From: Tildeniella torsiva UHER 1998/13D
GTDB taxonomy: Bacteria > Cyanobacteriota > Cyanobacteriia > Phormidesmidales > Phormidesmidaceae
DNA length: 64,000 bases
Assembly (NCBI GenBank): GCA_019358835.1
Contig: JAHHIH010000015.1
Location: 1 to 64,000 of the forward strand
Direction: 5' to 3'
Part shown: positions 4,480 to 44,343 of the stretch, in pieces
How the letters are laid out: every line of letters begins with the position of its first letter
How positions within the stretch are numbered: the first letter of the stretch is position 1
Position numbers and translations under genes: made by a program
The notes under the pieces: model-generated
Told to the model about the DNA's origin: nothing
The model's input: only the letters and a program-made list of their open reading frames with translations
Database searches by the model: none

Positions 4480-4701
4480 AGTAAATGTTTTTGACTTGCC
4501 ATTTTGAGTGTCAAAGTCTATAAATTATCTAGGCTTCTTCGAGGGAAATAGGACTCTAGATCTTTTGTTTTTGAAGGATGGGTAGAAAATACTAGGAGGT
4601 CAAAGCGGCAATTTTATCCCCTTTAAATGGCCTCCGAAATACAACATTTCCTGTTGATGTCATTTTCATTGCTGACGGTATAAATTTTTGGAGAACTCCT
4701 T

Positions 4702-41508: not shown

Positions 41509-41754
41509 ATGTTTAGCATCATCGTCACCGACAACGGGCAAATCACGTTGCCTGACGAGATCCGTCAGCATCTCAAACTCGTCAGCGGCAGTCGGGTCGA
41601 GTTTGTCATTGACGAAAGTGGACAAGTCAAAATCTTGCCCCTCACCGTTGCCGTAGAAACCTTGTCAGGCATCCTGCATCGGCCCAACATTTCCCCCTCC
41701 ACCCAAGATGACATGGATGTCGCCATCTCCGAGGGAGCTAATGATTGGGCTTGA
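41509..41754 (+). CDS. vapB: VapB-type antitoxin, SpoVT/AbrB fold
   Basis: 81 residues. The swapped-hairpin DNA-binding segment reads VTDNGQITLPDEIRQHLKLV, then VEFVIDESGQVKIL, followed by a toxin-binding tail (about 47-81) that ends DDMDVAISEGANDWA. Its last 14 bases overlap the start of the PIN toxin gene, the usual arrangement for translational coupling. It would repress its own promoter and neutralise VapC. Confidence 0.85.
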   Translation: MFSIIVTDNGQITLPDEIRQHLKLVSGSRVEFVIDESGQVKILPLTVAVETLSGILHRPNISPSTQDDMDVAISEGANDWA

Positions 41755-42130
41755 TACCAACATCCTGGTTCGCTATCTCACCCGCGACGACGAGCCGCAA
41801 TGGCAGCAAGCCTCTGAGGTAATTCAGCAAAATCAACCCTGCTTTATTGCCAACATCGTCTTGTGCGAACTGGTTTGGGTGCTCAGAGGTGCCAACTATC
41901 GCTTTCAAAAAGCTGAGGTGATCGGCATTATAGAAGCCATGCTCCACAGCGCTGCTTTTGAATTTGAGAGCCGCTCAACACTTGATCAAGCTCTTCAGCA
42001 ATACAAACAGGGCAAAGCAGATCTTTCTGATTACCTGATTGGGGCTATTTCTCGGCAAGCGGGTTGCACAGAAACCGTCAGCTTCGACGGTAAATTGAGG
42101 GGAGAAAGAGGATTTCAGTGCTTGGATTAA
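41741..42130 (+). CDS. vapC: VapC-type PIN-domain ribonuclease toxin
   Basis: About 129 residues from the ATG at 41741, chosen because GAGGGAG precedes it and MIGLDTNILVRYL is the canonical PIN opening. The acidic site is complete: D5, E43 in CELVWVLRG, D94 in KADLSDYLI and D116 in VSFDGKL. VapC toxins cleave specific RNAs when freed from VapB. Partner of the AbrB-fold antitoxin upstream. A MITE lies 120 bases downstream. Confidence 0.88.
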   Translation: MIGLDTNILVRYLTRDDEPQWQQASEVIQQNQPCFIANIVLCELVWVLRGANYRFQKAEVIGIIEAMLHSAAFEFESRSTLDQALQQYKQGKADLSDYLIGAISRQAGCTETVSFDGKLRGERGFQCLD

Positions 42131-42430
42131 TTTCTCCAGCTAACACTGCGTAGTTACGGACGCACAACGTTGATGTGTTCCCAAAGCTGCCTATCGCCGC
42201 TGATCTCAATCGTTAATTCTTCCTCAAATCGCCAGCACCTTGCCTTCATGGAAAATCAGGCGTTGCTGATTCTAGGTATGAAGCAAGGGCTAAACGCATT
42301 GAGGACTCATTTAGAATTCCACAAGTTCATACTACTATTCAGCAACGCCGAAAATCATTAGGCTTAGGGGAGCCTAGTTGGCGTCGTCGAGGCCAGTGTC
42401 GTCCATTGCCGTAGGGCTATAAAATCTGGG
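42131..42430. other. gene-free spacer with a MITE between vapC and ureB
   Basis: Three hundred bases between convergent genes. Its only structured content is the MITE at 42251-42357; a 63-codon rightward frame across it looks fortuitous. There is no trace of ureC after ureB in this stretch. Confidence 0.6.
42251..42357. mobile_element. 91-bp MITE with 8-bp target-site duplication
   Basis: Terminal inverted repeats of 24 bases at 42259-42282 and 42326-42349 share 19 positions, including the outer GGCGTTGCTGA. Both ends are flanked by the identical octamer GAAAATCA (42251-42258 and 42350-42357), an exact target duplication. The 43-base interior has no coding capacity. The ends resemble IS5-family termini of the IS903 kind (GGnnTTGnTGAAT), so an IS of that type elsewhere in the genome may mobilise it; the family assignment is tentative. 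Confidence 0.85.
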
Positions 42431-42736
42431 CTACAGCGCCCCTTCGACTTGGGCATTAAACCCGTACACCCGTCGCTCCCCCGCTAACGGCACCAAAGTT
42501 ACGTCACGCTCATCGCCCGGCTCAAACCGCACCGCAGTCCCCGCTGGTATATCCAGCCGCATACCTCGCGTCTGGTTACGGTCGAAGCTCAGCGCCGCGT
42601 TGACCTCAAAAAAGTGAAAGTGGGAGCCAACTTGAATGGGGCGATCGCCCGTATTGGCCACCGCCAGCGTCACTGTTTCCTTACCGGCATTTAGCTCGAT
42701 CTCACCCTCAGCGGGCAGCAGTTCTCCGGGAATCAT
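42431..42736 (-). CDS. ureB: urease beta subunit
   Basis: 101 residues, full length for the family: [40 protein letters not shown], and [20 protein letters not shown] are all hallmark stretches. UreB packs with UreA and the catalytic UreC in the urease trimer. AGGAGG lies eight bases before its ATG, inside the end of the S41 gene, which it overlaps by four bases (ATGA). No ureC follows; the minus-strand sequence after it is the MITE spacer and then vapC on the other strand. Confidence 0.95.
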
Positions 42737-43791
42737 GTGGGGCCTCCTAGGTTGGCAATCAGATCTTGGCGCTTTTGCTGGAGCGATCGCTCAACTCTGG
42801 GCAGGGTTTCCTCCAGCTCGCGGCGGGCCACCCCCTCAGCTCCTGCTTCCAGCAGATGGTTGAGGGCCATCAGATGGGCTGTATCGAGGGCCGTTTCCGC
42901 TGGCACCTTAACGGTGGGGAGCACCCCCGTACCATCCCAGTTTTTTCCGGTGACAGGGTTGATCGCCTGACCTGTGGGCATAAACACCCAAAAGTGGTCG
43001 TGCAGGCGGAAACCACGCCCCGGATTGGCCCCACCGCGCGTGGTTTCGCCCACTACGGCCCCGCGCTTCAGCACTTGCAGGTTGTAGGCAAACTCCTCCG
43101 CCGCTGAGAAGGTTTCAGGGCTGGTGAGGGCAAAGACAGGCTTGTCGAGGTAGCGTTGCCCCGGCACGTAGGGCACCGTCCACCACTGGTGGGTTTCGTC
43201 GGTCTCGCTCCAGTACAGGTCGTTGAGGTGAACGGGTGGGTGGGCGGGGAGTAGGTAGCTGCACAGCAGCGTCACCATGGCCGGAGAGCCCCCCTGGTTG
43301 TGGCGCAGATCAAAGATCAGGGCGTCGGTGTGGGCCACCAGGGTCATGGCAGCCGCTAGGGCATCGCCCGCAAACTCCGGCGGCTCAAAGCTAAACAGCT
43401 GGATATATCCAACGTTGCCCGGTAGGCGCTCAACCTTGTTCAAGTCAAAATTGCGGCGGCGGCTGGCCTGATGCTGGCGCTCGATTTCCTCAGCGCTAGG
43501 AGTTAGATCAGGCTCAATGTGGGGCAGGGGGGCGGGGCTAAAGTGCAGTCTCAGGTTGCGATCGCCGCTCATCTCTTGCAGCTGGGCCGTCAGCGTATCC
43601 GCCAGCTGCTGCCCGCCCTGAATATCGCCGTAGCCGCCCGACTCCAGGCGCTGCTCAAGGTCGGCCTGAATTTTTTCGGCCACCTCTGGAAACACATAGG
43701 CATCAAGCTGGGTGACCAGGGCTCCCAGTACGGCCTCGATCGCATCAGCATCCAGCACAATATCCCCTGGGTTAGAGCCAGAAACAGCCAT
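42733..43791 (-). CDS. S41-family peptidase between urease subunit genes
   Basis: 352 residues, no signal peptide, so probably cytoplasmic. An N-terminal helical domain (about 12-75) is followed by an S41 core with [35 protein letters not shown], and the nucleophile S229 in [13 protein letters not shown], then E249 in VVGETTRGG. This matches the IRBP/tricorn-like S41 branch without a PDZ domain. It overlaps ureB by four bases and starts eight bases after the ureA stop, so it is embedded in the urease operon. A role in urease maturation or turnover is possible but purely inferred from position. Confidence 0.85.
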
Positions 43792-43799
43792 GGGTCGCC

Positions 43800-44102
43800 C
43801 TACCGAATGGGTTCGTGAACCGTAACCAGTTTGGTGCCGTCGGGGAAGGTGGCTTCCACCTGCACATCGTGAATCATCTCCGCCACCCCGTCCATCACAT
43901 CGGCCCGGCTCAGCAGGGTGGTGCCGTAGCTCATCAGGTCGGCTACGGTGCGGCCATCCCGCGCGCCCTCGAGAATGGCCGCAGAAATATAGGCGACGGC
44001 TTCGGGGTGGTTGAGCTTCAGCCCTCGGTCTTTGCGGCGTTCAGCCACCAGGGCAGCGGTAAAAATCAGCAGCTTGTCTTTTTCCTGGGGGGTCAGTTGC
44101 AT
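43800..44102 (-). CDS. ureA: urease gamma subunit
   Basis: 100 residues, exact family length: [55 protein letters not shown], and [20 protein letters not shown]. Small structural subunit of urease, which hydrolyses urea to ammonia and carbamate. It is the first gene of the ureA-S41-ureB unit. No ureD is directly upstream; the next gene is divergent. Confidence 0.95.
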
Positions 44103-44343
44103 GGGGCGAGATGCGATCGCAGGGTACAGAGCTAACCGTAAGCTTTCAAGGTTTTGGGCGGCTTGTCAACCAATGCCCTCATCTGACTGAGTTCTAGCCC
44201 GACTGAGTTCTGGCTTCAAAATTAAAGCTTAAGCCATCGGCGCTAGGGTAATAACTACGTTAGCCTGCTGGTGAGCAACAATCAAAACGTTCTGACTGTC
44301 TAGCCCCGAGACCCGCTAGTCCCCCACTTGGTACCCCCTGCCT

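Follow-up and report, generated by a model that had tools for sequence, protein, structure and literature searches.

An S41 peptidase-like gene between the urease genes ureA and ureB in six genera of a cyanobacterial order

Why should a peptidase-like gene lie between the genes for two subunits of urease? This question is raised by a stretch of 64,000 nucleotides from Tildeniella torsiva UHER 1998/13D (the window). On its minus strand we found ureA for the urease gamma subunit (43800-44102, 100 aa; Pfam PF00547 Urease_gamma 1.8e-47, NCBIfam equivalog NF009712), a gene for an S41 peptidase-like protein (42733-43791, 352 aa; Pfam Peptidase_S41 1e-21, Peptidase_S41_N 1.7e-9) and ureB for the beta subunit (42431-42736, 101 aa; Pfam PF00699 Urease_beta 2.3e-47, NCBIfam equivalog NF009682). 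The coordinates agreed with the order that an earlier note had read from the letters, with a gap of 8 bases between ureA and the S41 gene and an overlap of 4 bases (ATGA) between the S41 gene and ureB. The ribosome-binding site of ureB, an AGGAGG read from the sequence at 42743-42748 (minus strand), lies ahead of the ureB ATG and inside the S41 frame, also as described in that note, and the N terminus of the S41 protein, read by eye, shows no visible signal peptide, as it had said. The S41 gene of the window is 95-96% identical to those of its closest named relatives, Phormidium tenue FACHB-1052 and Nodosilinea species.

The operon ends after ureB. The earlier note had proposed that ureC either lay elsewhere or had been cut away, and that missing ureC and accessory genes would mean a dead operon. 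Within the window ureC was indeed lacking behind ureB, and an intact ureC of 569 aa was found on contig C5 of the same genome (5.84 Mb, 48 contigs); the first proposal was borne out and the second fell. The only ureB of the genome is the copy in the window, on C46. The other genes searched for were likewise located on other contigs, with ureD on C8, ureG on C38, and ureE adjoining ureF on C3 (L225 5999-7172), where their longest frames overlap. All the genes that a functional urease calls for, ureA, ureB and ureC with the accessory ureD, ureE, ureF and ureG, are present, and a dead urease operon was ruled out by this set. The urease of this genome is complete but scattered, and its activity is predicted from the gene set. 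Nor did the separation of ureA and ureB from ureC stand as an oddity, since a survey of cyanobacteria (PMC6737895) describes ureABCDEFG as "often scattered", with complete dispersal in Synechocystis PCC 6803, and reports an unknown gene before ureC in Nostoc PCC 7120.

Next to the trio, the label of MITE given to the element after ureB was found to be fair: the MITE-like stretch (42259-42349) has 24-nt inverted repeats (42259-42282 and 42326-42349, 79% complementary), and about 90-100 bases of it were found again at 4 other places in the genome with 73-81% identity. The VapBC module beyond it was recognised by Pfam as an AbrB/MazE-type antitoxin gene with a PIN-domain gene in overlapping frames (41509-42130, plus strand). 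Upstream of ureA, a block of 43 bases containing TTGACA (44131-44173, minus strand) was almost invariant in an alignment of 14 Nodosilinea-group genomes, picked out of 22 upstream regions of the window's genus. This block has one match in its own genome, a single copy, and is probably a promoter or regulatory element. No Rfam family was detected at E 0.1 between positions 42000 and 44500. The NtcA consensus GTAN8TAC occurred in none of 37 upstream regions (one of them just 38 bases long), in comparison to 2.2 occurrences expected by shuffling, and NtcA control of ureA by the consensus was thereby ruled out.

The arrangement is not unique to the strain, a case that the note had named as a refutation, and the same gene order in related strains, which it had asked to be sought, proved common. 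Among 63 genomes of the order (Phormidesmidales), S41 orthologues were detected in 58 (best E 1.4e-50 or lower) and ureB in 56, in 55 of them above the family cut-off. The S41 gene and ureB were adjacent in 38 genomes and both present but apart in 15; S41 occurred alone in 5, ureB alone in 3 (counting G009, a fragment under the cut-off) and neither in 2. Adjacency in 38 of 63 genomes ruled out a strain-specific insertion or chance. The adjacent pairs span six of the 14 genera, here numbered g1 to g14: g1 (the window's genus, 24/26), g4 (1/2), g6 (2/2), g7 (8/8), g13 (2/2) and g14 (1/1). The other two g1 genomes gave no ureB, and their S41 matches were partial or split. In 36 of the 38 adjacent cases ureA precedes the S41 gene on the same contig; its position was looked at in 37 loci, the contig of G036 ends, and G026 was judged by coordinates alone. 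The 4-nt overlap of S41 with ureB was present in 28 of 37 loci, belonging to five of the six genera, and one more locus had an overlap of 1 nt. In the 8 loci of g7 the alignment puts the start of ureB 11-35 bases downstream, and the longest ureB frame gives a 1-nt overlap in 8/8. Several of the genomes are fragmented drafts, so single absences (e.g. G001, G006, G028, G038) may be gaps; G007, which is 99% complete, has the S41 gene and no ureB match. On contig 379 of G038 (locus L097) a frame break near 4496-4500 divides the S41 gene; this could be a real lesion or an error of the draft.

A draw of 388 genomes across the class gave 62 with an S41 relative at 1e-40; of these, 56 came from the family of the window and 6 from different families. 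A scan outside the order, in which 80 of 89 loci were confirmed and kept, showed no S41 relative beside ureA, ureB or ureC. It covered at most 4 kb on each side, many loci were truncated by contig ends, and its queries were conserved peptides of the family, so that distant cases could be missed. The g7 cluster, ureD-ureA-S41-ureB-SH3 gene-ureC, corresponds to a cyanobacterial ureDABC cluster with insertions, and the S41 gene between ureA and ureB sets the clusters of this order apart from other cyanobacterial ureDABC clusters. We found no published report of an S41 gene between ureA and ureB among open-access papers, in a search where the term "ureA" was blunt, as it also matches "urea"; the variant of the urease cluster seen here across six genera of one order thus has no earlier report that we could find.

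What kind of protein the gene encodes was examined by sequence and fold. Its core belongs to the S41 family by both (Pfam PF03572, 77.7 bits against a cut-off of 24, and many S41 fold matches), and the AF2 model had a mean pLDDT of 91.4 and a pTM of 0.87. A full-length match that includes Peptidase_S41_N identified it as the IRBP/RBP3 type. The best PDB sequence match was RBP3/IRBP over about the whole length (9frx, four repeats, 2.8e-137; profile 1.2e-216), and IRBP came first by fold as well (4lur, Z 27.5, rmsd 4.4 over 298 residues). Like IRBP, the window protein has a helical N-terminal part followed by the S41 core and has no PDZ domain; unlike IRBP it is a single module in which no signal peptide was seen and the serine is kept, and the likeness implies no retinoid role. 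The C-terminal processing peptidases (CTPs: CtpA, CtpB, Prc, D1P) share the core fold (D1P 1fc6, Z 19.1, rmsd 7.0 over 272 residues), but their PDZ domain is absent from the window protein, in which Pfam gives S41_N and S41 alone, and the protein is not of the CTP type by NCBIfam TIGR00225 (prc; 34.7 bits against a cut-off of 218.6). Tricorn also matched by fold (1k32, Z 11.8, rmsd 3.5). Besides the window protein, the fold alignment (A2) took in 43 of the 80 loci; L071 and L098, with a stop inside the match, were excluded, and L109 and L113 were left out by choice. When the N termini of 33 loci were read by eye, starts resembling signal peptides were seen in several from Acidobacteria, Rhodanobacter, Janthinobacterium and Bacteroidota, and none in the cyanobacterial N termini among them; the protein is apparently cytoplasmic.

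Another fold match was the nisin resistance protein NSR from Streptococcus agalactiae (PDB 4y68; Z 18.6, rmsd 5.0 over 260 residues, 15% identity), an S41 protein with an N-terminal helical bundle and its Ser in an S-x-x-E motif, as in the window protein. PMC4698656 gives its dyad as His98, where the bundle ends, and Ser236 (in S-S-A-E), with about 14% activity left in either alanine mutant. The window protein differs in not being membrane-attached and in having Asn at a position where His is invariant among homologues from outside the order. In the model, helices at 15-31, 35-50 and 60-75 form the bundle and column 79 lies just beyond it, so we took this column, by position alone, as the equivalent of His98 of NSR. 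Column 79 would likewise correspond to the catalytic His residues H746 in tricorn and H105 in CPAF, and Glu286 to the Glu of both.

The active site was compared in an alignment of 107 sequences and the window protein, in which a few of the rows from the order may be near-copies of one genome. Of the homologues from outside the order, 45 were non-cyanobacterial and 5 came from other cyanobacterial groups; His79, Ser229 and Glu286 were each conserved in 50/50 of them. Within the order (57 rows) column 79 held Asn in 24, Gln in 14, Ser in 8, His in 6, Thr and Ala in one each and a gap in 3, so that His was kept in 6 of the 54 rows with a residue there; column 229 held Ser in 49 and Thr in 8, all of the latter in g7, and column 286 held Asp in 26, Glu in 19 and others in 12. 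The window protein has Asn79, Ser229, Gly254 and Asp286, and Ser229 with Glu232 makes up the S-x-x-E motif. In CTPs, the Lys 25 residues after the Ser is presumably the catalytic partner. Gly254 occupies this position in the window protein, and the Ser/Lys dyad is therefore absent; the S300/K325 pair mutated in Helicobacter pylori CtpA, according to the PDB title, has the same spacing as Ser229 to Gly254. Lys254 was found in 8 rows of the order and in 2 of the 45 non-cyanobacterial ones. The eight g7 rows with Thr229 (L146-L153) were taken to be the same as the eight with Lys254, and a Thr/Lys arrangement is thus possible in the g7 S41 protein, which sits in the ureD-A-S41-B-SH3-ureC cluster.

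With Asn at the position of the putative catalytic His, peptidase activity of the window protein is in doubt. The name of peptidase used in the earlier note is perhaps only partly true: membership of the S41 family and the serine speak for it, and the lost His against it. Six members of the order keep His79, two genomes of the window's genus (L046, G039) and 4 of 5 rows of g10, and four of the six have the full His-Ser-Glu triple (L097 was excluded from this count); judged by these residues, some of them may be active. The clade of g3, g5, g8 and g11, in which the S41 gene is free of urease genes, has Gln at column 79. As His is kept in L046, G039 and most of g10 and replaced by Gln in the free clade, its loss does not cleanly track the presence of urease genes. 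On a tree calculated with sites 79, 229, 254 and 286 blanked the His label needs 4 changes, which points to repeated losses or some regain.

Eroded residues of this kind, together with the frame break in G038, might be expected of a gene that is decaying or is a chance neighbour without function. The gene is, however, under purifying selection. Against relatives in the genus its dN/dS was 0.047-0.138 in 8/8 comparisons, in comparison to 0.011-0.044 for ureA (8 relatives), 0.007-0.046 for ureB (7 relatives, 1 not computable) and 0.068-0.186 for the neighbouring 6-phosphogluconolactonase gene (7 relatives). These values place the S41 gene in the range of ordinary enzyme genes, under weaker constraint than the genes of the urease subunits. 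The frame is also open across deep divergence and the fold is confidently modelled, and mere decay, largely refuted by the selection, is very improbable.

The history of the arrangement can be read from the gene orders of the other genera. In g7 the loci that were long enough showed protein kinase-BioD-M20-ureD-ureA-S41-ureB-SH3 gene-ureC, and in g14 the order was ureD-ureA-S41-ureB-SH3 gene-GH57. In g10 the kinase, BioD and M20 genes are directly followed by S41 in 5/5 loci, then by the SH3 gene and GH57 in 4/5, and no ureD, ureA or ureB was found at these five loci. The flanks of the g10 gene are accordingly those of clusters with urease genes: g7 and g10 have kinase-BioD-M20 in common on the upstream side and the SH3 gene on the downstream side, and g14 and g10 share SH3-GH57. 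A similar relation was seen for M20-c17-DUF3318, which precedes ureD-ureA-S41-ureB in g4 (G008) and S41 alone in g3 (2 loci) and g11 (1 locus); in g9 (G050) c17-DUF3318-ureD-ureA-S41 was found with ureB on a different contig. In g3, g5, g8 and g11 the S41 gene is apart from ureA-ureB. The urease genes were found elsewhere in such genomes: ureA lies directly before ureB and away from S41 in six genomes, G010 (g5), G046 (g8) and the four of g3/g11 that were looked at (G002, G003, G005, G058), and in g10 the one ureB locus examined in each of four genomes (G051, G053, G054, G055) holds a different cluster, ureA-B-G-D-E-F; some g10 genomes have two ureB genes. G047 has ureB without ureA on its contig, and G048 showed just a divergent ureABC cluster.

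In the S41 tree (33 rows of the order and 9 others) the order was monophyletic (100/99), g10 stood beside g14 with g7 next to them, and g9 branched at the base of g3/g5/g8/g11. On this tree 3 changes are required for the label "between ureA and ureB", which we read as one gain and two losses. The rpoC1 tree was broadly compatible, with 5 changes for the label and many open forks; its outgroup G074 has an enormous branch, apparently through a wrong frame taken by the longest-frame rule. The signal of the ureAB tree was too low to date the insertion. Exchange of the S41 gene among the genera of the order was considered and rejected, as genera with several rows group together in the S41 tree (g8 excepted) and this tree fits rpoC1, with weak deep forks. 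The simplest reading, by parsimony, is one capture in the ancestor of the order and then two main losses, in which S41 stayed and the urease genes left; this inferred direction of change leans on parsimony and on trees whose deep forks are weakly supported.

Such partings bear on the role in urease assembly or turnover that the earlier note had suggested. A dedicated urease factor would trim, degrade or chaperone UreA, UreB or UreC, with the coupling to ureB setting the stoichiometry. The place beside ureB is kept in six genera, with the 4-nt overlap in five, and the trio has remained together in the window's genome although all other ure genes are on other contigs, as a factor of this kind would explain. 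However, the S41 gene has no ureD, ureA or ureB around it in g10, is apart from ureA-ureB in g3, g5, g8 and g11, and occurs without a ureB match in 5/63 genomes, as does ureB without S41 in 3/63. UreA and UreB are of ordinary length and cover their family profiles, hence no removable extension was seen, the S41 gene evolves faster than ureA or ureB, and the putative His is lost. The suggestion was not sustained by this pattern, and we regard a dedicated urease factor as unlikely.

The M20 amidohydrolase/peptidase gene in these neighbourhoods raises another alternative, an active cytoplasmic peptidase of nitrogen salvage that is co-expressed with urease since both release ammonium. M20 lies directly upstream of S41 in all five g10 loci and further upstream in loci of g3, g4, g7 and g11, and Ser229 is kept in 49 of 57 rows of the order. 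Yet the putative general base is replaced in 48 of the 54 rows with a residue there, the M20 gene of g7 adjoins ureD and not S41, and the 37 upstream regions are free of the NtcA consensus GTAN8TAC. A salvage peptidase therefore appears rather unlikely.

The reading that we prefer, at a probability of roughly 0.55, is that of an anciently captured gene, translationally coupled to ureB, which has a function of its own and an eroded active site and is a long-term passenger of the operon. In the ancestor of the order, if trees and gene order are followed, a single gene for a cytoplasmic, PDZ-less S41 protein of the IRBP type would have entered the cluster ureD-ureA-ureB-(SH3 gene)-ureC at the junction of ureA and ureB. 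It would then have become a member of the operon, its stop overlapping the ureB start; the overlap and the ribosome-binding site are seen in the sequence, and co-transcription would follow from them. Translation of ureB would be coupled to that of S41, and it is likely because of this coupling that the trio is still together in the window's genome while ureC, ureD, ureE, ureF and ureG have moved away. The protein's own job would be separable from urease, as two lineages parted the gene from the urease genes and kept it. With the putative general-base His lost in most lineages, weak or no ordinary proteolysis would be expected, and the role might be mainly the binding of peptides or other ligands in the S41 tunnel. 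Erosion of the active site on an intact, confidently modelled fold is in favour of this reading. A functional partnership, too, would give the adjacency found in 24 of the 26 g1 genomes, and gene position cannot by itself show that the product never touches urease.

Such a partnership could take the form of a non-catalytic pseudo-peptidase, which the S41 protein would have become on entering the operon and which would hold or escort nascent UreB or UreA, its dose set through translational coupling. We consider this distinctly unlikely; if true, it would add a helper of a novel kind to urease, and to vertebrate IRBP a second, bacterial example of such a peptidase that became a binding protein. 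In vertebrate IRBP the active-site serine was lost, probably in three modules separately (PMC10450429), whereas the S41 proteins of the order have most often lost the His position.

A captured long-term passenger would show that a gene can be taken up between two subunit genes of one enzyme and be coupled to one of them, yet have a separate fate. The order also holds a natural series, in which the gene is coupled with the His lost, free with the His kept (4/5 g10 rows), or free with both His and Glu lost (g3/g11). With this series one can test at what point, and for what reason, a peptidase of the IRBP type gives up catalysis, a matter so far discussed for the vertebrate eye protein.

Further urease genes were observed in several genera. 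Urease clusters that are either additional or replacements were of two types, a divergent ureABC-G-D-E-F type in genomes of g7, g8 and g14 (L155, L164, L165, L185; contig ends truncate two of these four) and a ureA-B-G-D-E-F type in g10 (L156, L159, L217, L219). The gene between ureB and ureC in g7 has a weak SH3-like match (L146 7091-7882), and a gene of this kind lies beside S41 in 4/5 g10 loci (L158 8255-9229).
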